Source of the DNA: Paludibacteraceae bacterium
Lineage (GTDB): Bacteria; Bacteroidota; Bacteroidia; Bacteroidales; Paludibacteraceae
Direction of reading: 5' to 3'
Length of the DNA stretch: 59,917 nt
NCBI GenBank assembly: GCA_017962085.1
Contig: JAGCWA010000021.1
Coordinates: 1-59,917 of the forward strand
In this document: positions 4,919 to 19,952 of the stretch, piece after piece
Numbering within the stretch: position 1 is the stretch's first letter
Layout of the letters: the number at the start of each line of letters is the position of its first letter
Notes under the pieces: model-generated
What the model saw: the letters and a program-made list of their open reading frames with translations, nothing else
What the model was told of the DNA's origin: nothing
Databases searched by the model: none
Translations under genes and position numbers: made by a program

Positions 4919-4947
4919 TATATTTGCACTATCGGAAAAATTCCGAT
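4919..4947 (+). promoter_or_regulatory. gldE promoter with palindrome at the start site
   Basis: TATATTTG at 4919-4926 fits the Bacteroidota -7 box. Just downstream, where transcription should start, is a perfect inverted repeat, ATCGGAA (4931-4937), three A, TTCCGAT (4941-4947). It could be an operator overlapping the start or a 5' RNA hairpin of the gldEDG transcript. Confidence 0.5.
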
Positions 4948-4999
4948 GTATTATGTTTAACGAAATTTTCAGTAATTGGATATACCACTTTTATCTTTT

Positions 5000-6310
5000 A
5001 TGGAATGGGCCGGCACACCAGATGCTTGGTGGATGGCCACTCTTACGGCGGCGGTCATTGTCGCGATTATCTCTTTTGTGTTGCTAGCCTTCGTTTCATT
5101 CTTCGAGTCGGAGTTCTTCTCTTTGAACAGCAATGAAATAGCTGAAATCAAGATTTCCAACGACAAGAAGTTCGAACGGCTGAAGAACCTCTCCGAAGAC
5201 CCGCTCAGGACCTTAGGCGGCGTGATCTCAACCCGCTACATCTTCATCGTGACGGGCATCTCCACCACCACCCTCCTGCTATGGCACCTCCTTTCGGGCA
5301 CCTGCGTGGCGCTGTGGGGGAAATGGCTCATCGTCATCGCCACAATAGGCATCCTACTGACCATCTTCGCGGAATACATCCCGAAGAAAATGGCCAACAA
5401 ACAAAGCCAGAAACACCTGTGCCGGAGCGCTAACATCGTCAGCCTGTTCGGCCTGCTATTCTCCCCATTCACCAAACTGCTGATGCTCAAAACGGGTGTC
5501 GTGGAGCGCAGGCTGGAGTCGCGCACCCAACATAGCGCGGCCATAGAGGACATCTCAGACTCGCTGAACCTCTCCGACGCGGAGACGGCCGACGAGAAAG
5601 AGATCCTGCGGGGCGTGATGAACTTCGGTAAAATCAGCGTCGACGAGATCATGCAACCGCGCGTGGACATCGTGGACGTGGACTTCAACAGCGACTTCGA
5701 CACCGTGCTCGAGATCATACGCGAGTCGGAATACTCCCGCCTCCCCGTCTACGAGGACTCCATCGACTACGTGAAGGGTATCCTCTACATCAAGGACTTC
5801 CTGCAATACACCGACCAGAAGAAAGACTTCAAGTGGCAGAACCATATCCGTGAGGCCTACTTCGTGCCGGAGAACAAGAAGATTGACGACCTCCTGAAGG
5901 AGTTCCAACAGAAGCATATCCACATGGCGGTCGTGGTGGACGAGTTCGGCGGAACATCGGGCATCGTCACCATGGAGGACATCATCGAGGTCATCGTGGG
6001 CGACATCTGCGACGAGCACGACGAGGAGGAGAAACAGATCATCCCAATCGACGCCAACACCTATATCCTCGACGGAAAGCTCCTGCTCTCGGACTTCTAC
6101 CACATCAACGGTGTGAACAAGGAGGACTTCGGCGAGACGGAGGGCGACGCGGACACGCTGGCGGGTCTCATCCTCGAAATGAAGGGCTACATCCCTACCC
6201 CAGGCGAAACGATCGAGCTGGGCAGCAGATACCGCTTCGAGATCAAATCGGCGGATAAACGCAGAATCAAGGAAATAAAGTTCATCATCAATGAAGAAAA
6301 GAATGAATAA
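5000..6310 (+). CDS. gldE: GldE, CNNM/CBS/CorC-type membrane protein
   Basis: This is a gliding-motility-associated relative of the CorC/HlyC family. The N-terminal CNNM-type membrane domain has hydrophobic segments at roughly residues 15-35, 75-105 and 120-145 of the ATG product. A pair of CBS domains follows (IMQPRVDIVDVD, EYSRLPVYEDSIDYVKGILYIKD, VVDEFGGTSGIVTMEDIIEVIVG), and then a CorC_HlyC domain (TYILDGKLLLSDF ... EMKGYIPTPGE). Identification as GldE rests on the adjoining gldD. The frame can also start at a TTG at 4976, but I prefer the ATG at 5000 because it follows the promoter at a sensible distance. The gldD start overlaps its end. GldE is linked to gliding/type IX function in Flavobacterium; its biochemical role is not established. 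Confidence 0.85.
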   Translation: MEWAGTPDAWWMATLTAAVIVAIISFVLLAFVSFFESEFFSLNSNEIAEIKISNDKKFERLKNLSEDPLRTLGGVISTRYIFIVTGISTTTLLLWHLLSGTCVALWGKWLIVIATIGILLTIFAEYIPKKMANKQSQKHLCRSANIVSLFGLLFSPFTKLLMLKTGVVERRLESRTQHSAAIEDISDSLNLSDAETADEKEILRGVMNFGKISVDEIMQPRVDIVDVDFNSDFDTVLEIIRESEYSRLPVYEDSIDYVKGILYIKDFLQYTDQKKDFKWQNHIREAYFVPENKKIDDLLKEFQQKHIHMAVVVDEFGGTSGIVTMEDIIEVIVGDICDEHDEEEKQIIPIDANTYILDGKLLLSDFYHINGVNKEDFGETEGDADTLAGLILEMKGYIPTPGETIELGSRYRFEIKSADKRRIKEIKFIINEEKNE

Positions 6311-6872
6311 AGGCATATTGTTCCTCTTCGCCATGGTGCTGCTGAGCGCCTGCACGGAATACATGCCTAAGCCACGTGGATACTTCCGCATAGACCTGCA
6401 AGAGAAGTCTTACAAGAGATTCCATACGGAGGGTTTCCCCTGCTCCTTCGAATACGCCGACAACGTCTCCGTCGTCAAGACAAGCGGTGTCGAGGCGGAC
6501 TCGGTGTGGGTGGATATCATATACCCGCAATACAACGCGCGCATCTACGGCACCTACCGCAAGGTGGACGGCAACTTCGCCCAACTCTCGGAGGAGGCCT
6601 ACAAACTGGTGTACCAGCCCCACGTCTCCAAGGCGGAGGGCATCAACACCTCCTTCTTCTCCAGCGACGAGCACAAGGTCTACGGCATGCTCTATGAGCT
6701 GAAGGGCAACACCGCGTCGAACATCCAGTTCGCCATGTCGGACAGCACCCGCCACTTCCTGCGCGGGGCGCTCTACTTCAACGCCAGCCCGAACAAAGAC
6801 TCCATCGCCCCTGTGGTGGACTACATCAAGGAGGATATCATCAACCTAATCAACACGTTAGAATGGAAATGA
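6291..6872 (+). CDS. gldD: Gliding motility lipoprotein GldD
   Basis: This is a 193-residue lipoprotein with signal peptide and lipobox LLSAC (Cys21), so it is inserted in a membrane, presumably facing the periplasm. Directly after the Cys comes the GldD signature YMPKPRGYFRIDL, then a compact domain without recognisable catalytic motifs. The gene overlaps the end of gldE by 20 bp, and its own stop overlaps the start of gldG. This indicates translational coupling in a gldE-gldD-gldG operon. GldD is required for gliding in Flavobacterium and is conserved in non-gliding Bacteroidales with type IX secretion. An alternative start at 6303 would shorten the n-region by four residues. Confidence 0.88.
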   Translation: MKKRMNKGILFLFAMVLLSACTEYMPKPRGYFRIDLQEKSYKRFHTEGFPCSFEYADNVSVVKTSGVEADSVWVDIIYPQYNARIYGTYRKVDGNFAQLSEEAYKLVYQPHVSKAEGINTSFFSSDEHKVYGMLYELKGNTASNIQFAMSDSTRHFLRGALYFNASPNKDSIAPVVDYIKEDIINLINTLEWK

Positions 6873-8563
6873 TAAAAAAGAGCATCCATATCATTCTCTT
6901 CATCATAGCGGTCATCGCTGTCTACTTCATCTCGGAGCGGCACTTCTTCCGCATCGACCTGACCTCGGAGAAGCGTTATTCCCTCTCCGACAACACCAAG
7001 AACCTACTCGGCTCACTGGACGAGGAACTGGAGGTGAAGGTCTATCTGGACGGCGACCTCAACGCTGGCTTCCTGCGCCTACGCAAGGCCACCAAGGAGA
7101 TGCTGGACGAGTTCGACGCATACGCGGGGAAGAGGGTCCGCTACTCATTCGAGAACCCTTCCGCAGGCGCCACCAACGAGGAGCGCGACAAGAAATACGA
7201 AGAGCTGGAGAAACGTGGAATGCGGGGCATATTGGTCCACGACAGGGACCAGGAGGGTCAGGCCATGCAAAAGGTGGTCTTCCCTTGGATAGAGATCCTC
7301 TACAAGGGGAAAAGCCGTCCCGTCAACCTCCTGAAGAACGTACCGGACAAGTCGGGCGAGGAGAACCTCAACACCTCCATCGAGACGCTTGAATACGAAA
7401 TCACGGACGCCCTACGCCTCATGACCACGAAGCAGGTGCCTAAGGTGGCTTTCCTGGAGGGCCACGGAGAATGGGTGCAGCCGCTGGTGTACGACATGAC
7501 CCAAGCCTTGAGCCACTACTACCAAGTGGACAGAGGTGCCATCACCGACGACCCTTCCATCCTGAACGACTACAAGGCGCTCATCATCGCTGGACCTACG
7601 GAGGACTTCCCCGAGAAGGATAAATACGTGATCGACCAATACATCATGAAGGGAGGCAAGGTGCTCTGGCTAGTGGACGGAGCCCGCATCTCGCTGGATA
7701 GCCTCTCCACCGCCTCGCAAACCATCGGCATAGAGAACAAGCTGAACCTCAGCGACCAACTCTTCAACTACGGCGTGCGCATCAACGCGGACCTCGTGCA
7801 GGACGTGCAATGCCTACTGATCCCAGTGAACACGGCGCGCATGGGCGACCAGCCTAAGTACGAACCGATGCCTTGGTACTACTCACCGTTGGCGTTGGCG
7901 ACCCCTATCCACCCTATCTCCAAGAACCTGGCGCCCGTGAAGACGGAGTTCGTCAGCTCGATCGATTTCGTGAACGAGGAAATGGACGTGAAGAAGACTC
8001 CGCTGCTCGTCACCTCGACCGGTACGCACGTGCAGAACATCCCTTCCGTCGTCAGCATGGATGTCATCAACGTGGAAAAGAACGGTTACTACTTCAACAA
8101 GCATAATATCATCCTCGGAGCCGTGCTGGAGGGCGTTTTCCCTTCCGTCTTCAAGAACAGGATGGTCCCTCAGGGCGTGACGACGTCAGACCCGATGCTG
8201 ACGGAGAGCAAACCGACCAAGATGGTTGTCATCGCGGATGGCGACGTCATCCGAAACGATGTGCAGGGAAAGGGTGAGAACATGAACATCCTACCGCTCG
8301 GCTACGACCGCTACATGAACCAACAATTCAGCAACAAGGAGCTGCTCCTCAACGCTGTGAACTACCTCACGGACGACGACGGATGGATGGCCCTCCGCTC
8401 ACGGGAGATCAAACTGCGCCTGCTGAACAAACCCGCCATCATCGGCCAACGCACCTTCTGGCAGATCGCCAACATAGCGCTGCCGCTCGTCCTCCTCGGA
8501 CTTTTCGGGGTATGTTTCAACTTTATCAGGAAGAAAAGATACACCAAGGAACTAAAAAAGTGA
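6869..8563 (+). CDS. gldG: GldG, ABC-transporter-associated membrane protein
   Basis: The product (about 564 residues) has one N-terminal membrane anchor (IIKKSIHIILFIIAVIAVYF-like). It then has a large extracytoplasmic domain of the DUF4350/ABC_transp_aux type (RYSLSDNTKNLL, DALRLMTTKQVPKVAFLEGHGE, LIIAGPTEDFPEKDKYVIDQYIMKGGKVLWLVDG), and a C-terminal membrane helix (IANIALPLVLLGLFGVCFNF) with a basic tail. I chose the ATG at 6869 because it overlaps the gldD stop as ATGA; an ATG at 6863 is also in frame. GldG normally pairs with the ABC permease GldF and ATPase GldA. No gldF precedes it here; gldD does. A hairpin begins directly after its stop. Confidence 0.85.
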   Translation: MIKKSIHIILFIIAVIAVYFISERHFFRIDLTSEKRYSLSDNTKNLLGSLDEELEVKVYLDGDLNAGFLRLRKATKEMLDEFDAYAGKRVRYSFENPSAGATNEERDKKYEELEKRGMRGILVHDRDQEGQAMQKVVFPWIEILYKGKSRPVNLLKNVPDKSGEENLNTSIETLEYEITDALRLMTTKQVPKVAFLEGHGEWVQPLVYDMTQALSHYYQVDRGAITDDPSILNDYKALIIAGPTEDFPEKDKYVIDQYIMKGGKVLWLVDGARISLDSLSTASQTIGIENKLNLSDQLFNYGVRINADLVQDVQCLLIPVNTARMGDQPKYEPMPWYYSPLALATPIHPISKNLAPVKTEFVSSIDFVNEEMDVKKTPLLVTSTGTHVQNIPSVVSMDVINVEKNGYYFNKHNIILGAVLEGVFPSVFKNRMVPQGVTTSDPMLTESKPTKMVVIADGDVIRNDVQGKGENMNILPLGYDRYMNQQFSNKELLLNAVNYLTDDDGWMALRSREIKLRLLNKPAIIGQRTFWQIANIALPLVLLGLFGVCFNFIRKKRYTKELKK

Positions 8564-11888: not shown

Positions 11889-12097
11889 GTTATTACCCAT
11901 TCCACTGCCATTGAGGGCAGTACAGTGACCGAAGTGGAGGCTCAATTGCTGTTTGATGACCGAAAAGGAGGAATTTGATAAAGCATTTGTTATACGCAAA
12001 TTCCCATGCAATGATAACTTTTTTTGAGCATTATACGATGTTGTAACTCATGGTTCCATGTTTGTGGGGTTAAATGGAAAAAATCACTTGCGATTTC

Positions 12098-12125
12098 TTG
12101 ATATTGAAAATATCCTTTACCTTTG
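12098..12125 (+). promoter_or_regulatory. Island-type promoter A, with GATATT/AATATC dyad
   Basis: TTG at 12098-12100 and TACCTTTG at 12118-12125 frame a spacer holding the perfect dyad GATATT (12100-12105), GAA, AATATC (12109-12114). The same arrangement recurs at 14906-14934 and partly at 19340-19366. It serves the AlbA_2 gene at 12251. The stretch between the rhuM remnant and this gene holds otherwise only the 12-bp repeat and its short frame. Confidence 0.6.
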
Positions 12126-12250
12126 TAGAAGATCTGTTATGGAATATACAAGTGAATAGAATTTGAAAAAAGACAATAATATACACATGCCTGAAGAAAT
12201 CATGTCAAACATAAAGCAAAATAAAAATTAATCAAGAGGAATAGGCAGAT

Positions 12251-13711: not shown

Positions 13712-13814
13712 CATCGATAAGGCGTTGGCATTTATTACCAAGAATAACATGTCGGAATAAATAATTGATGGCGTGTACCTATGCCTAAAATCGATTTTTA
13801 TAAACGGAACCCCT

Positions 13815-14033
13815 AAGGTGGACAGAAAAGGTGGACAGAAAACTCGTGAAGCCATTCTGTCGCTCATCACAGAGAATCCACAAATCACCTCCATGCAAAT
13901 GGCGGAAAGACTCGGCATAAACCGTAGTGCCATCTCCAAGCACCTCAAACGTATGCAAGCGGAAGGTGTCGTTCGTCGCATAGGCCCGGACAAGGGCGGA
14001 CACTGGGAGGTGGGTCATAACACAAACGGATAA
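13815..14033 (+). pseudogene. Winged-helix remnant 2, C-terminus of an AlbA_2-type protein
   Basis: Starting around KVDRKGGQKTREAI, this frame encodes a linker piece and a complete winged helix (ILSLITENPQITSMQMAERLGINRSAISKHLKRMQ ... RRIGPDKGGHWEV) ending in a stop. The last residues parallel GSDKGGHWEIV of the intact upstream gene, but the DNA is clearly diverged, so it is not a fresh duplication. The frame is open from 13773 (86 codons) but has no AlbA_2 or ATPase part. It could act as a solitary DNA-binding protein; I favour a remnant. Confidence 0.55.
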
Positions 14034-14107
14034 AATCCTCTTACTCGAAAAGGAGGAAATTATCATGTTGCATTACATCGTTCCTTAAGGTACGGCAAAA
14101 AAGTGAT

Positions 14108-14176
14108 AGTATTACACACATTCGCTATGTAGGTAGCGGATATAGTGGTTATTGGGAGGTGTTTGACGATAAATAA
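14108..14176 (+). pseudogene. Winged-helix remnant 3
   Basis: A 22-codon stretch ends with the wing of the same domain type (SITHIRYVGSGYSGYWEVF) and then a stop. Nothing upstream in the frame continues the domain. It is the third successive C-terminus of this type in about 700 bp. Confidence 0.4.
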
Positions 14177-14399
14177 AAACACGAAATAAGGAAAGAGCCC
14201 TTGTTGAATAACGAGCGTACATACAAATACGAGAGTAAAAAATTGAACAAAACACAATAAAAGAGAAGAAAATCACATTCCTTTTGAGTGTATCTTACGT
14301 GGTTTTCATAATTAATTCGTATCTTCGAAGCACATCCAGACATACCTTCTCCCGAAGAAGATGTGACAACAGCTAACCAAACTTGCCACAATGTAAGAA

Positions 14400-14777
14400 A
14401 TGCAAAAAATTGGCTTAAAAGGTAGACGTTATATACCTTTAATGGCAAAAACTTGCAAAAACAAAGGGCAATTCCTCACCTATTTCACCAAGCTATTTGT
14501 AGAGGAAGTTACGTACAATATTCGTTTCCTCACAGAACGAGGGAATAATGTATGGTGGTTCGATGGTGAGCGAGTGAACTTCCGCAGCGACTCAACAAGC
14601 AAGATCCTCAATCTTATGTATGCTGCCCCAGACATCACAATTCAGAAGCTATCAAATGAGGTGGGTATCAACGTTGCAGCCGTAAACAAGCAACTGAAGC
14701 AGCTGACCACCAAAGGCTACATACAACGAGTAGAGAAAGATGGCACATGGCGACTAATTATCACGCCATCGGTATAA
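14400..14777 (+). CDS. Winged-helix protein or remnant 4
   Basis: This is a 125-codon frame. Residues about 60-125 form a winged helix (KILNLMYAAPDITIQKLSNEVGINVAAVNKQLKQL ... RVEKDGTWRLI) that resembles the preceding three remnants. The first 60 residues (LTYFTKLFVEEVTYNIRFLTERGNNVWWFDG) are not from a domain I recognise, and the start is not well supported. A weak TATCTTCG promoter box lies at about 14321. It could be a small transcription factor, or the decayed end of another multi-domain protein. Its position directly upstream of the structured RNA and SIR2 genes makes a regulatory role conceivable, but nothing in the sequence proves it. Confidence 0.4.
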   Translation: MQKIGLKGRRYIPLMAKTCKNKGQFLTYFTKLFVEEVTYNIRFLTERGNNVWWFDGERVNFRSDSTSKILNLMYAAPDITIQKLSNEVGINVAAVNKQLKQLTTKGYIQRVEKDGTWRLIITPSV

Positions 14778-14905
14778 ATTTAGCACGGAATACCGACATC
14801 ATCCAACCACTTCCCGACCGGTCCCCAAATCCATGATCAATCCGTCTATATGATACTTGGAATTAAGCGCGGGAACGTGCTTATGAAAAAATCACACGCA
14901 CATTC

Positions 14906-14934
14906 TTGATATTAAAAAATATCCTTTACCTTTG
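14906..14934 (+). promoter_or_regulatory. Island-type promoter B, upstream of the structured RNA
   Basis: TTG at 14906-14908 and TACCTTTG at 14927-14934 flank GATATT (14908-14913) and AATATC (14918-14923). About 50 bp around it is closely similar to promoter A (12074-12126), including an upstream AAAAAATCAC run. Transcription should start near 14940, exactly where the first stem of the RNA candidate begins. Confidence 0.65.
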
Positions 14935-14939
14935 TGGCG

Positions 14940-15227
14940 TACCCACTACGGGTGCGGACATATATAGAAAAACGTTTACTGACGTTTTCCTTTGACGATT
15001 CGGAACTTCGCAACTTTTGAATTTGCTGTCAAAGAGAATGCAACGGTGGACGCTTACGTTGGTATGCATTGATTTGCAGACCTTTCTTTGATGTATACGC
15101 ATCGGAGTAAGTCTGTATCATTCATATCTAAGCGTGGGCTTCGCGTTGCTCGATCTTACAGCAAAGGGCAATGCGAAGGCCTCGAATCGTGGGAGCGAGT
15201 AACAAGATTCCCACGTTTTTCTTTTTT
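14940..15227 (+). ncRNA. Candidate structured RNA / leader upstream of the SIR2 module
   Basis: No credible ORF spans this region, but it holds consecutive stem-loops. They are: ACCC/GGGT (14941-14953, extendable by two pairs); AAAACGT/ACGTTTT (14969-14988, perfect); CTTTGAC/GTCAAAG (14990-14996 with 15028-15034, perfect); CAACG/CGTTG (15041-15061); TGCAGAC/GTCTGTA (15075-15081 with 15111-15117, one G-U) enclosing GATG/CATC; CTTCGCGTTGC/GCAATGCGAAG (15139-15149 with 15168-15178, one G-U); and a terminator stem at 15188-15215. A strong promoter lies just upstream. The next gene starts 44 nt after the T-tract with no further promoter in between. It could therefore be an independent small RNA or an attenuating leader. 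I do not recognise an Rfam class; it lacks the hallmarks of tmRNA and RNase P RNA. Confidence 0.6.
15188..15227 (+). terminator. Intrinsic terminator ending the structured RNA
   Basis: CGTGGGA (15188-15194), a 14-nt loop and TCCCACG (15209-15215) are followed by a long T-rich run (15216-15227). A competing pairing, CTCG (15181-15184) with CGAG (15196-15199), overlaps the ascending arm and would break the terminator stem. This is the layout expected of a switchable attenuator. Confidence 0.7.
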
Positions 15228-15270
15228 ATAATAGCCGTTTAGGGGAATCGACGGATAGAAGTAAAAAGTT

Positions 15271-15570
15271 ATGGAAGAAGATAAGAAACAAAATTCCGCA
15301 GAAAAAAAATCGGTCATTATTAGTTGGTATCAGAAGCTTACCAAAGGAGAAAAAAACTGTTTAAAAGGTTACATCATATGGTTTTTGATACATTGTGCAT
15401 TGTTAAGCGCAGGCGATAATTGGAGCGGGTTCTACCCATGGAACAGTTATTCTAAATTGAGATGGGAGATACGTGATTATGGATTACCTGAATTTATAGT
15501 TTACGCAGCACTAATACCAACTGTGGCGTACTTTATTTATTCATTTTACAAGAAAACAAAAACTAAATGA
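15271..15570 (+). CDS. Small two-helix membrane protein
   Basis: The 99-residue protein has a charged N-terminus (KKQNSAEKK) and a first membrane segment at about residues 33-48 (GYIIWFLIHCALLSAG). A polar loop with NWSGFYPWNSYSKLRW follows, then a second segment at about 75-93 (FIVYAALIPTVAYFIYSF) and a lysine-rich tail. Loop patterns of this kind occur in small Bacteroidales membrane proteins of unknown role. It lies 44 nt after the terminator of the structured RNA and 7 nt before the SIR2-like gene, so it is probably co-transcribed with that gene. In defence modules a small membrane partner can be an effector, sensor or immunity protein; which applies here is unknown. Confidence 0.6.
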   Translation: MEEDKKQNSAEKKSVIISWYQKLTKGEKNCLKGYIIWFLIHCALLSAGDNWSGFYPWNSYSKLRWEIRDYGLPEFIVYAALIPTVAYFIYSFYKKTKTK

Positions 15571-15577
15571 AATTGAA

Positions 15578-16840
15578 ATGAATAATAAAATAGACATTGA
15601 TTTTGGAGACAACAAACAAACAGTTCCTTTGAAGGATAGAAAATCTATATCTATTCTATTAGGAGCTGGTTTTTCTATTCCTATGGGATATCCTTCAGGG
15701 AATAAAATGAATGAGTATTTGCTGCATTTTGATGATAATACGCATTCGTTTGATGCTAATTCGGGGAAGTTGACAACTACAACAGACCATTCAAAAACAA
15801 ATTTTAATAACACAAGAGTTGGAGACCGGAAATATTTTGATTTGTGTTTACGTTTAATAAAAAAGTACGAAGAAACACATAACGGAAATTTTGATTATGA
15901 GCATTTCTACGACTTTATAAAGGGAGACGAAATAAAAGAAGAACAATATAAAAGTTTATTTGATAAACTCGTTGATGAACGTAATACTTACGGAGATTGC
16001 ATATACCATGTTTCTGATATTTACAATCAGATGATAGCTTGTCTAATGAAAGACAAGGACAAAGAATCGTGGTATGACAATGAACCGACTAGGGTGGATT
16101 ACTACGATGAAAAATATGATACTTTCATTAAATATCTGTCTGATTTGAGTAAAGAATATATTGTTAATGTTCACACACTGAATCACGATTTGCTATTTGA
16201 ATCGTTCAAAATCAGCACACTTATCGACAACGGAGACGTCTCTGATGGATTCGAAGAACTTGGTTCTAAATATTACGGTATTTTATGTCATGAAAATAGG
16301 ACTTACCACTGTCGACTAGAAAGGTATACGGGCAAATACGACACGCCTATACGTCTGTACAAACTACACGGAAGTCTTGATTACGTACATTTCTATCGAC
16401 GAAATGGGCACATCATGGAACTAGACAATTATATTAAAATTAAACATGGCATAGGTTATGATAAAATTATGAAAGAAAATGATGAAGGGACCTCCTACGA
16501 AGAAGATCCTTTCGAGACACATGCGGACTTTTTAACAGGTACAACAGCAAAGATAAAACGATATGGTGAACCTTTCTTCAAGAACCTTTCGGGAAAATTT
16601 GAAGAGAACTTAAAAAATGCAGAGAAACTCATTATTATTGGATATGGTTGCAAGGATCAAGGAATAAACGATATGATAAAAAATAATTTTAACAGAGAAA
16701 AGCCTTCTTTCATTATTGATCCTAACCCTCAGGAACTCGTGAATGCATTTAGCGAATGCATCGGTTCAAAAATATTGAAGTTTGGGATTGACAATTTAGA
16801 TATTAATTCGCTCAAATCACAAGACAATGAAAATAAATAG
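15578..16840 (+). CDS. SIR2-like NAD-dependent protein, likely defence effector
   Basis: This is a 420-residue protein of the SIR2_2 group. The NAD-binding motifs are in place: GAGFSIPMG (residues 29-37); TLNHD (200-204), with Asn202 at the position of the catalytic Asn in TxNxD; KLHGSLDY (262-269), with His264; and GYGCKDQGIN (355-364). Bacterial proteins of this type (for example in Thoeris ThsA, DSR and short-Argonaute systems) hydrolyse NAD during phage infection. Activity here is inferred from those motifs. No fused sensor domain, STAND or Argonaute gene is visible. The gene follows the two-TM protein by 7 nt, and its stop lies 14 nt inside the following lipoprotein gene, so the three probably form one unit. 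Base composition is AT-rich, unlike the core genes. Confidence 0.8.
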   Translation: MNNKIDIDFGDNKQTVPLKDRKSISILLGAGFSIPMGYPSGNKMNEYLLHFDDNTHSFDANSGKLTTTTDHSKTNFNNTRVGDRKYFDLCLRLIKKYEETHNGNFDYEHFYDFIKGDEIKEEQYKSLFDKLVDERNTYGDCIYHVSDIYNQMIACLMKDKDKESWYDNEPTRVDYYDEKYDTFIKYLSDLSKEYIVNVHTLNHDLLFESFKISTLIDNGDVSDGFEELGSKYYGILCHENRTYHCRLERYTGKYDTPIRLYKLHGSLDYVHFYRRNGHIMELDNYIKIKHGIGYDKIMKENDEGTSYEEDPFETHADFLTGTTAKIKRYGEPFFKNLSGKFEENLKNAEKLIIIGYGCKDQGINDMIKNNFNREKPSFIIDPNPQELVNAFSECIGSKILKFGIDNLDINSLKSQDNENK

Positions 16841-17438
16841 TTTATTATTATTGGGGGCTTTATCAATAGCAATAACCTCATGCAATAATGGAGGGAATAA
16901 TAAAACGTCTGAATCTGGCACAGAGAAAGAAGAAGTGAAAACAGAGGAACAGCCATATAACGAGTCCATTCAAAATGTTTTTTTTGGAGTGCCATTCGGA
17001 GCAACTTATGAGGAGGCATGCGAAAAACTGTCTCAAGACTTTTGGTTTAATAAAAGAGTGACAACAAAAGACAGGTTATCTCTTAACCCTAAAAAAGGTG
17101 GTAAAATTAGTTTTGGTGGCAGATCATGGGATCTCCTTGATATGGGCTTTAGCAATAACAGATTCTACACTATTCAACTACACAACACCCACAAAACAAA
17201 AGAGTCTGCAATGTCAGAGTATAATAGTTTATATTCAGTGATTTCCCGGAAATATAATATGAAGACTGTACAAGAGAGCGATACTACAACATACGGGCTA
17301 GCCTATGGAATAACTAAAACGAATCAGCAAGTGTGGGTTCAGTGTCATAGTTACGAAAGCGTTAGTCATGAACGTTGGATTGGAGTTTCTTTGATATATG
17401 CTGATCAAAATTTCGAAGGAATAAGTGAAGAATTATAA
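16827..17438 (+). CDS. Lipoprotein of unknown function, coupled to the SIR2-like gene
   Basis: The 203-residue protein has a signal peptide and lipobox (ITSC at Cys19). A low-complexity N/G/K/E linker to about residue 45 follows, then a compact domain of about 150 residues opening with FFGVPFGATYEEACEKLSQ. That opening resembles small Bacteroidales lipoproteins whose domains begin with a similar FxGxPxxxxxxE pattern. No catalytic residues are evident. The start codon lies within the SIR2-like gene (14-bp overlap), which implies translational coupling. A surface or periplasmic lipoprotein is an unusual partner for a cytosolic NADase. It may be a sensor or a passenger; the sequence does not say. 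Confidence 0.7.
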   Translation: MKINSLLLLGALSIAITSCNNGGNNKTSESGTEKEEVKTEEQPYNESIQNVFFGVPFGATYEEACEKLSQDFWFNKRVTTKDRLSLNPKKGGKISFGGRSWDLLDMGFSNNRFYTIQLHNTHKTKESAMSEYNSLYSVISRKYNMKTVQESDTTTYGLAYGITKTNQQVWVQCHSYESVSHERWIGVSLIYADQNFEGISEEL

Positions 17439-19037: not shown

Positions 19038-19132
19038 CAAATATAGTAAAAATCTAAAGTTTGACATAGTAAAAATCTAAAGTTTTGTATGGTGAAAATC
19101 TAAAGTTTGGAGTTGGTAAAATCTAAAGTTTG
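19038..19132 (-). promoter_or_regulatory. Four-unit repeat array overlapping the ATPase promoter
   Basis: On the plus strand, TAGTAAAAATCTAAAGTTTG or a close variant starts at 19044, 19067, 19090 and 19114, an almost exact 23-bp period or about two helical turns. The minus-strand -7 box TATATTTG (19045-19038) overlaps the first unit and lies 23 nt before the ATPase ATG. The array therefore covers the core promoter and 70 bp upstream, as expected for a cooperative operator. Confidence 0.75.
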
Positions 19133-19339
19133 AGTCATATATAACTAATATACAATCATTTATATTTTACCACAAAAGGAGCTAAATGGCCTATCAAAAA
19201 TGATAAAATCACCCTTATTTCATAGGCTTACATCTTGTAGGCTTTCACGCCTACACCAATAGGCAAACAGGGGGACAAATTGTCCCCCACTTGAGGCTAA
19301 ATTCGGGGAATATGATTACGAATAATTGCATGCATATTC

Positions 19340-19366
19340 TTGATATTAAAAAATCCATTACTTTTG
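19340..19366 (+). promoter_or_regulatory. Island-type promoter C
   Basis: TTCTTGATATT followed by an A-run and TACTTTTG (19359-19366) is a degenerate third copy of the promoter type at 12098 and 14906. The right half of the dyad is damaged. It serves the unknown gene at 19404. Confidence 0.5.
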
Positions 19367-19403
19367 TGTTATAACGATGTCTTTCCGCTAACATAAAGCC
19401 ACC

Positions 19404-19952
19404 ATGTTACAGATCATCAAAATTGAAGAAGCGAATTACAAGAAGTATTGCAACCTTGATATTGTAGCATTTTCGTATGCTAAAGCAGGAGCATGTGGAG
19501 ATGGTGGAAGCGTATGCATTATTGATATAAATGGTCAGATATACTACACCAATTATGCGGACCTCCATGCAAAGCTGAAGTACAAACATCTATTGAAAGT
19601 CGTACCAACCTTGAAGGATTGCATATTCAACTCTTTTGATCACTTGGCGCCAGAAGGTTGGGTGCCTTTTTACTTGGGTCTCGGCAACCACTTGACTCTC
19701 AAATCGATATACCATGAGTCATTCAAATCCGAAATGGAGAAACGTGGGGTATACGGACCGCCAGACCTATATGTTCACTGGCCAGGAATGGTATTGAGCA
19801 TTCTCAGCCACACACAATCAGACATTACCTTGAGAGAGATTTCGGAAGGAGTAGAAAAGACAGAAACAATCGACGAGGGAACATGTTTCCTCTCAAAGAT
19901 CCGAAAACACATCAAAGATAAATTTGAGGTATTACTTGGTAAGGATAATTGA
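19404..19952 (+). CDS. Unknown protein with ACGDGGS motif
   Basis: This 182-residue, probably cytosolic protein has no signal peptide or membrane helices. Visible features are FSYAKAGACGDGGSVCIIDINGQIYYTNY near the N-terminus, a central FDHLAPEGWVPFYLGLGNHL and a C-terminal basic amphipathic tail. I recognise no family. A glycine- and cysteine-containing loop followed by beta strands could be a nucleotide- or metal-binding site, but this is speculation. It has an island-type promoter. The gene converges on, and overlaps by 21 bp, an orphan HigA antitoxin gene on the other strand. A broken relative of its N-terminal segment is found at 10695-10803. Confidence 0.6.
   Translation: MLQIIKIEEANYKKYCNLDIVAFSYAKAGACGDGGSVCIIDINGQIYYTNYADLHAKLKYKHLLKVVPTLKDCIFNSFDHLAPEGWVPFYLGLGNHLTLKSIYHESFKSEMEKRGVYGPPDLYVHWPGMVLSILSHTQSDITLREISEGVEKTETIDEGTCFLSKIRKHIKDKFEVLLGKDN

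Follow-up and report, generated by a model that had tools for sequence, protein, structure and literature searches.

The RNA of about 290 nt that precedes a SIR2-like gene in the window (the whole 59,917-nt stretch of Paludibacteraceae DNA analysed here) is an ordinary member of an apparently new Bacteroidales family of structured leader RNAs, and the covariation and genomic placement of its homologues suggest that it is a cis-acting transcription attenuator, a reading to which we assign a probability of about 0.7. A preliminary description of this DNA had noted a structured leader ending in a terminator, and this observation is confirmed. On the forward strand, TTG (14906-14908) and TACCTTTG (14927-14934) occupy the −33 and −7 positions of what we take to be the Bacteroidetes promoter pattern, which locates the strong promoter described earlier, and transcription would start near 14940. 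From this putative start to the end of its U-rich run, the leader (14940-15227) has a predicted folding energy of −108.9 kcal/mol, against −73.5 (sd 4.9) for 200 dinucleotide shuffles (z = −7.26; none of the 200 as low), and it contains no forward-strand ORF of at least 50 aa, in keeping with the structured, ORF-free stretch previously described. It ends, as had also been proposed, in an intrinsic terminator (15188-15215), which is seen in the sequence and supported by covariation and in which CGUGGGA (15188-15194) pairs with UCCCACG (15209-15215) ahead of a U-rich run (15216-15227); the hairpin alone has a computed energy of −10.9 kcal/mol. A generic scan of the window lists neither the leader terminator, because its 14-nt loop exceeds the limit of 8 set in the scan, nor the leader promoter, because the scan uses a different consensus. 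Between the promoter boxes, a GATATT/AATATC inverted repeat (14908-14923) can be seen by eye and is a possible operator.

Among homologues, covariation strongly supports a long-range helix, helix P, whose 5′ strand (14995-15002 and 15006-15012) and 3′ strand (15172-15178 and 15183-15190) would connect the 5′ domain with the stretch that leads into the terminator, overlapping the first three bases of the latter. Helix P was first read from 39 loci and the window, and then counted on 124 other loci, at most 90% like those of the first reading, again with the window. In these 125 sequences, 96.5% of its pairs are standard, against 78.1% when shuffled, and double changes are seen in 11 of 15 pairs and 366 cells, against 7.8 and 104.8; none of 500 shuffles reaches either the doubly changed pairs or the cells, and 17 reach the number of pair types. 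This shuffle control ignores relatedness, but a sliding control that keeps it lowers pairing to between 29.6 and 42.5% when helix P is moved out of register. The six highest-scoring pairs by corrected mutual information, computed on 158 of 189 sequences after removal of those short or more than 90% alike (effective number 110), all lie in helix P, and five of them are 98-99% standard, with up to 1.78 bits; this analysis included the test loci and was seen before the helix P count. The outer part of helix P, like the terminator, was left free by the pattern and the model used to collect loci. Its outer eight pairs are paired at 0.968 within a copy and at 0.605 between random copies (L021-L210), and thus appear nearly sequence-free yet strictly paired, as though every copy carried a key of its own.

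The remaining conserved helices share strands with one another, and covariation supports them more weakly than helix P. Strand 2 (CGUUGCUCGAUC, 15144-15155) can pair either with strand 1 (GCAACG, 15040-15045) or with strand 3 (GGAGCGAGUAAC, 15192-15203), which overlaps the 5′ arm of the terminator, while GCGUGGG (15132-15138) provides an alternative partner for the 3′ arm, in an outer helix with 15210-15216. The CTCG/CGAG pairing formerly said to overlap one terminator arm is likewise present and conserved. In a first set of loci (37 of 40, plus the window), helix 2:3 and the outer helix together are 96.8% paired against 92.9% when shuffled (0 of 500 shuffles reach this value, and 18 of 500 reach the doubly changed pairs). 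In the second set (124 loci plus the window), pairing reaches 99.8% in helix 1:2 (99.4% shuffled), 97.9% in helix 2:3 (97.3%) and 97.7% in the outer helix (95.5%), and none of these percentages is reached by any of 500 shuffles. Double changes affect two of five pairs and three cells of helix 1:2 (reached by 3 of 500 shuffles), four pairs and six cells of helix 2:3 (0.9 and 1.3 shuffled) and 27 cells of the outer helix (7.6 shuffled), whose count of doubly changed pairs is unremarkable (reached by 95 of 500). In the larger set of 158 sequences, 787 of 790 cells are paired over the five pairs of helix 1:2. Of the 124 test loci, 104 were collected with a pattern in which most of strand 2 and GGCAATGCGAAGGCC are fixed, and the other 20 with R1, a covariance model built on the 3′ domain of the leader that includes helices 2:3 and outer; the tests on helices 1:2, 2:3 and outer are thus tied to the way these loci were gathered. 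A small 5′ hairpin (14972-14975 with 14982-14985) is 93.6% paired (91.4% shuffled), with 11 double-change cells (2.0 shuffled) and one doubly changed pair (1.2 shuffled).

Of the conserved pairings, the terminator is the weakest supported. It is 90.7% paired in the first set (83.6% shuffled) and, when counted in the majority register, 84.9% in the second (79.9% shuffled), with 82 cells changed on both sides against 39.0; its count of doubly changed pairs, reached by 252 of 500 shuffles, is unremarkable. When counted in the register of the window itself, pairing shows no excess (84.0% against 83.9%), which we attribute to one extra G in the window. With the register left free, the mean length of terminator helices is 6.3 bp, falling to 5.5 bp when partners are exchanged between sequences, and helices of at least 6 bp are seen for the terminator in 92 of 125 sequences and for the outer helix in 123. 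The presence of covarying helices in homologues speaks against a degraded protein, and thus against one of the grounds on which the preliminary description would have abandoned an RNA element. Two further pairings of the window were discarded on inspection by eye. The pairing of the U-run with 14966-14975, a 10-nt inverted repeat contained in the best fold of the window, is lost in those relatives that have AAGACG with CGCGC, and a local GGGCUUC/GAAGGCC hairpin, which forms if the 3′ domain is folded alone, lacks covariation, its 3′ strand covarying with the 5′ domain. The same U-run repeat is the only inverted repeat of at least 10 nt in 14700-15300, and an invertible promoter was therefore rejected.

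The family is patchily distributed through the Bacteroidales. Relatives were detected by blastn in 24 of 101 genomes searched, with up to 10 matches per genome, some of them pieces of one copy, and a profile grown from them matches all 40 fetched loci, 39 across at least 200 positions. In the exception, L043, the match is confined to the first third of the leader; there (4943-6932) it stops at the equivalent of window position 15005, and homology to the window returns at 16859, beyond the SIR2 gene. At E ≤0.001, R1 matches 174 of 250 genomes of the family to which the window belongs, in 26 of 33 genera and at up to at least 16 places per genome. The best match reaches E ≤1e-8 in 130 of the 174; the remaining 44 are weaker and some may be chance matches, because the E-values are rough and a match with E 6e-6 in the genome of the window looks false. 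In the order, 47 of 295 genomes and 29 of 178 genera are matched at E 1e-5, and in a sample of 395 genomes from the phylum only three are matched at E 1e-4: the genome of the window, one of the same order and, weakly, one of the same class. Individual genomes can carry several matches at E 0.001, with four in Parabacteroides distasonis NM39_I3 and five each in Segatella copri iA622 and Bacteroides caecigallinarum ET12. When titled genomes were scanned with a sequence pattern, at least 120 stretches were returned; among the 80 matches listed, most are from Bacteroidales taxa and four bear Firmicutes-type names (L103, L122, L156, L158), perhaps through contamination. Neither blastn against plasmid and phage records nor a scan of IMG/VR with one pattern, a weak negative given the strictness of that pattern, returned any match, and an element of plasmid, phage or viral nature was rejected on these grounds.

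Besides the copy in the window, its genome holds a second strong copy (C51:133107), whose first downstream gene matches the PADLOC candidate PDC-S31 (E 7e-16), and a divergent one, L213 (C47:83753). The latter (1250-1680) precedes a TPR-like gene; by eye, its long-range, 2:3 and outer helices seem to be re-formed with other letters, and it seemingly retains the outer helix and not the terminator. A weak match at C45:2822 (L212) looks false by eye. Alignment columns 124-138 and 195-200 covary without forming standard pairs, which suggests sequence subtypes of the RNA, and several of these apparent subtypes are found within one genome. In six genomes with two to seven fetched copies each, mean identity among copies is 0.54-0.67, against 0.60 for random pairs (for the genome of the window, a near-identical copy from another genome, G001, was substituted), which indicates that the family has long been multicopy and that exchange among copies is not frequent.

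In the window, the U-run ends 43 nt before the first of three forward-strand genes, which encode a small membrane-type protein of 99 aa (15271-15570), a SIR2-like protein of 420 aa (15578-16840) and a lipoprotein-like product of 203 aa (16827-17438); neither the first nor the third matches any Pfam model at E 0.05. The SIR2-like identity of the second is supported by PADLOC SIR2-type models (best E 2e-15) and by Pfam SIR2_2 (E 7e-4, under the curated cut-off of that model), with no match in NCBIfam. Elsewhere, the genes behind the leader are of many kinds. In a collection of 148 proteins, made up of 145 products of the 163 first downstream genes, truncated at 330 aa, and the three of the window, 68 Pfam models are matched at E 0.001, some of them overlapping on one domain. 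Among the 25 most frequent of the 68, those at the top are BspA-type LRR (six), SNF2 helicase and ResIII (five each), followed by DUF3575 and the Por secretion tail (four each) and by BACON, outer-membrane barrel and DNA methylase (three each), with HaeIII endonuclease, TerD, sugar transferase and HSP70 among the singles. PADLOC adds DrmD (five) and Type III and Type II methyltransferase models (three each). The payloads thus include secreted, LRR, defence and polysaccharide genes, and the Pfam matches of the 148 proteins point to no evident common pathway. A crude signal-peptide rule is satisfied by 84 of 163 first genes and by 27 of 87 other ORFs (Fisher p 0.002), the control ORFs being longer and drawn from fewer loci. 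The preliminary description had envisaged an RNA switch dedicated to an NAD-depleting gene, and this part of it is not supported: SIR2 is one of many payloads, a relative (L023) with the same upstream flank and leader has another operon behind them, and a private SIR2 switch was rejected.

Leaders of this family consistently precede genes. Among the 138 distinct loci flanked by 520 nt or more on each side, 116 have a same-strand ATG ORF of at least 100 aa whose start lies no more than 200 nt downstream, against 20 with a divergent one upstream (131 against 31 for ORFs of at least 60 aa), and the median distance from U-run to start codon is 63 nt in 163 loci. Of 155 loci, 136 carry the −7 box TAnnTTTG no more than 140 nt ahead of the RNA core, against about 9% expected from single-base shuffles, and a single one carries it between U-run and start codon (3.4% expected), consistent with the earlier remark that no second promoter precedes the gene in the window; a laxer box with TTG at 17-23 nt gives 85 of 155 before the RNA and 5 of 155 between RNA and gene. 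With a −7 box before the RNA and hardly ever one before the gene, expression of these genes seems to require that the leader be read through, and the combination of an RNA with its own promoter and a same-strand gene apparently without one is what would be expected of an attenuator.

In the attenuator model, RNA polymerase would start near 14940 and make the structured leader. When strand 2 pairs back with strand 1, the terminator hairpin would be left free to form and transcription would stop near 15227. When strand 2 pairs instead with strand 3, it would take the 5′ arm of the terminator, the freed 3′ arm would pair with 15132-15138, and the polymerase might run on into the genes. Because these strands are shared, terminator and alternative would be mutually exclusive, and a terminator with a conserved, apparently exclusive alternative is the arrangement that defines attenuators. 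The 5′ domain could act as a sensor tipping this balance, since helix P links it to the segment before the terminator and overlaps the terminator itself. We infer that the alternatives act as a switch, which of them is the ON state, and that some trigger exists, whether small molecule, protein or RNA. The competing folds computed for the window differ by no more than about 11 kcal/mol: −108.6 kcal/mol with helix P and helix 1:2, −102.6 with the terminator, and −97.8 with helices 2:3 and outer and without helix P, whose combination with these two is a pseudoknot left out of the computed folds. Across 145 sequences, the energy gap of terminator minus alternative has a median of −0.1 kcal/mol for the terminator alone (quartiles −2.8 and 4.2) and of +2.6 kcal/mol when helix 1:2 is added (quartiles −0.4 and 8.1), the terminator of the window's clade being out of register, and so too weak, in these energies. 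The terminator may form transiently, with the finished RNA then refolding, and the alternative state might itself terminate, as the outer helix also borders the U-run.

The preliminary description had left two options open, an independent small RNA or a switchable leader, and it is the leader that promoter and gene placement favour, acting very probably in cis. A stable small RNA acting in trans, for which the helices would represent the mature fold and the genes would be reached by accidental read-through, would account for the RNA having its own promoter and U-run and for the outer helix and helix P being the better paired helices, and multicopy small RNAs such as FopS are known in Bacteroides from the available part of their description (PMC11697453). 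It would nonetheless leave without explanation the same-strand gene right behind the RNA in 116 of 138 loci, against 20 on the other side, the lack of any −7 box from U-run to start codon in 154 of 155, and the covariation, by cell counts, of a terminator 5′ arm that the mature fold does not need, and we regard it as unlikely. Somewhat less improbable, though still doubtful, is a loading site for a candidate processive antitermination factor, such as a NusG paralogue of the UpxY type or a LoaP-like protein, which the RNA fold would recruit, instead of binding a small ligand, to carry transcription through long accessory operons. This explanation overlaps with the attenuator and differs from it in the trigger; it fits the position of the leader before unrelated genes, and RfaH, UpxY and LoaP systems serve payloads akin to the polysaccharide, surface and defence genes seen here, but the alternative strands already supply a local antiterminator.

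The exchange of payloads behind the leader raises the further question of whether it is mainly a recombination junction, in which homology between promoters and leaders would swap payloads and the RNA fold would have little regulatory role. The window and L023 are 95% alike over 13812-15231, which spans the upstream flank, the promoter and the leader, and then diverge, L023 carrying another operon from just past the U-run. In L021, L022 and L024, similarity to the window around the leader is confined to promoter and leader (approximately 14878-15265, ending just before the start codon), with scattered further matches in other parts of the retrieved sequences. When leaders 80-99.5% alike are compared in 46 pairs, 29 of these have no flank in common, six share both, two are not comparable, and eight keep the upstream flank while changing downstream, against one with the reverse, the eight overlapping and amounting to about four separate cases. 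All this is compatible with a junction, but the covariation of helix P calls for selection on RNA pairing, and the identities of 0.54-0.67 within genomes indicate that exchange is infrequent, so that a junction of little regulatory role appears highly improbable. Two stretches of the window, 12077-12126 and 19306-19368, resemble the promoter region (14878-14936) and precede, respectively, a SLFN_AlbA-type gene (12251) and a gene at 19404, with no R1 match listed at either. Four 23-nt tandem repeats (ATAGTAAAAATCTAAAGTTTGAC) lie at 19043-19133, and related repeats adjoin the leaders of L021 and L024.

Several known systems resemble the attenuator proposed here in part. Like trp-type ribosome-mediated attenuators, in which leader pairings and a terminator overlap, this operon leader combines overlapping 1:2 and 2:3 pairings with a terminator. 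Unlike them, it has no shared start codon, is crossed by a long-range helix and precedes unrelated payloads, not those of one pathway. An ATG precedes strand 1 in 90 of 158 sequences, with no alignment column holding more than 15 (ATG starts only), so that a leader peptide with ribosome-mediated attenuation is not supported. Orphan riboswitch candidates are also long, conserved, covarying leaders with a terminator directly upstream of genes, but the family has no Rfam match and its downstream genes no evident pathway in common, unlike those of typical riboswitch regulons. Leader elements ahead of long accessory operons are used by the EAR/LoaP, JUMPstart/RfaH and UpxY systems; the analogy may extend to position, but the RNA family described here has its own terminator. 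The FopS/GibS small RNAs of Bacteroides form a multicopy family with their own promoters and terminators, but FopS, in the available part of its description, is a single-stranded 5′ stretch followed by a terminator hairpin that acts in trans (PMC11697453). On that account the leader, a large fold before genes with helix P and several other helices in place of a single-stranded 5′ seed, was not assigned to the FopS small RNAs.

The leader matches no RNA class in Rfam, in line with the preliminary description, which had recognised none. A scan of the window with Rfam 15 at gathering thresholds returned only a tRNA outside the leader, and in 14780-15400, at E values up to 5, only SNORD14 (16.3 against 64 bits); membership in a known class was rejected on this basis. 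Bacteroidales-1 RNA (RF01693) and 6S-flavo (RF01685), structured Bacteroidetes RNAs according to the part of the source at hand (PMC2864571), are not among the Rfam matches of the leader. The family appears undescribed in the open literature searched, subscription papers lying outside that search, and a fragment of it may figure among the 3161 structured RNAs predicted in human microbiomes, as far as the available part of that report indicates (PMC8040213).

A broader reading, less probable than the attenuator itself and less likely than not, is that one ancient class of RNA switch in Bacteroidales puts a large and changing set of accessory genes under the same ON/OFF control and serves also as the joint at which payloads are exchanged. 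If so, defence, surface, secreted and polysaccharide genes would plug into one leader answering one signal, and one cue might be enough to release the accessory genome. The leader stands before genes that are often unknown, secreted or devoted to defence; its trigger, once found, would reveal when they are expressed, and the leader itself offers an anchor for finding more of them.
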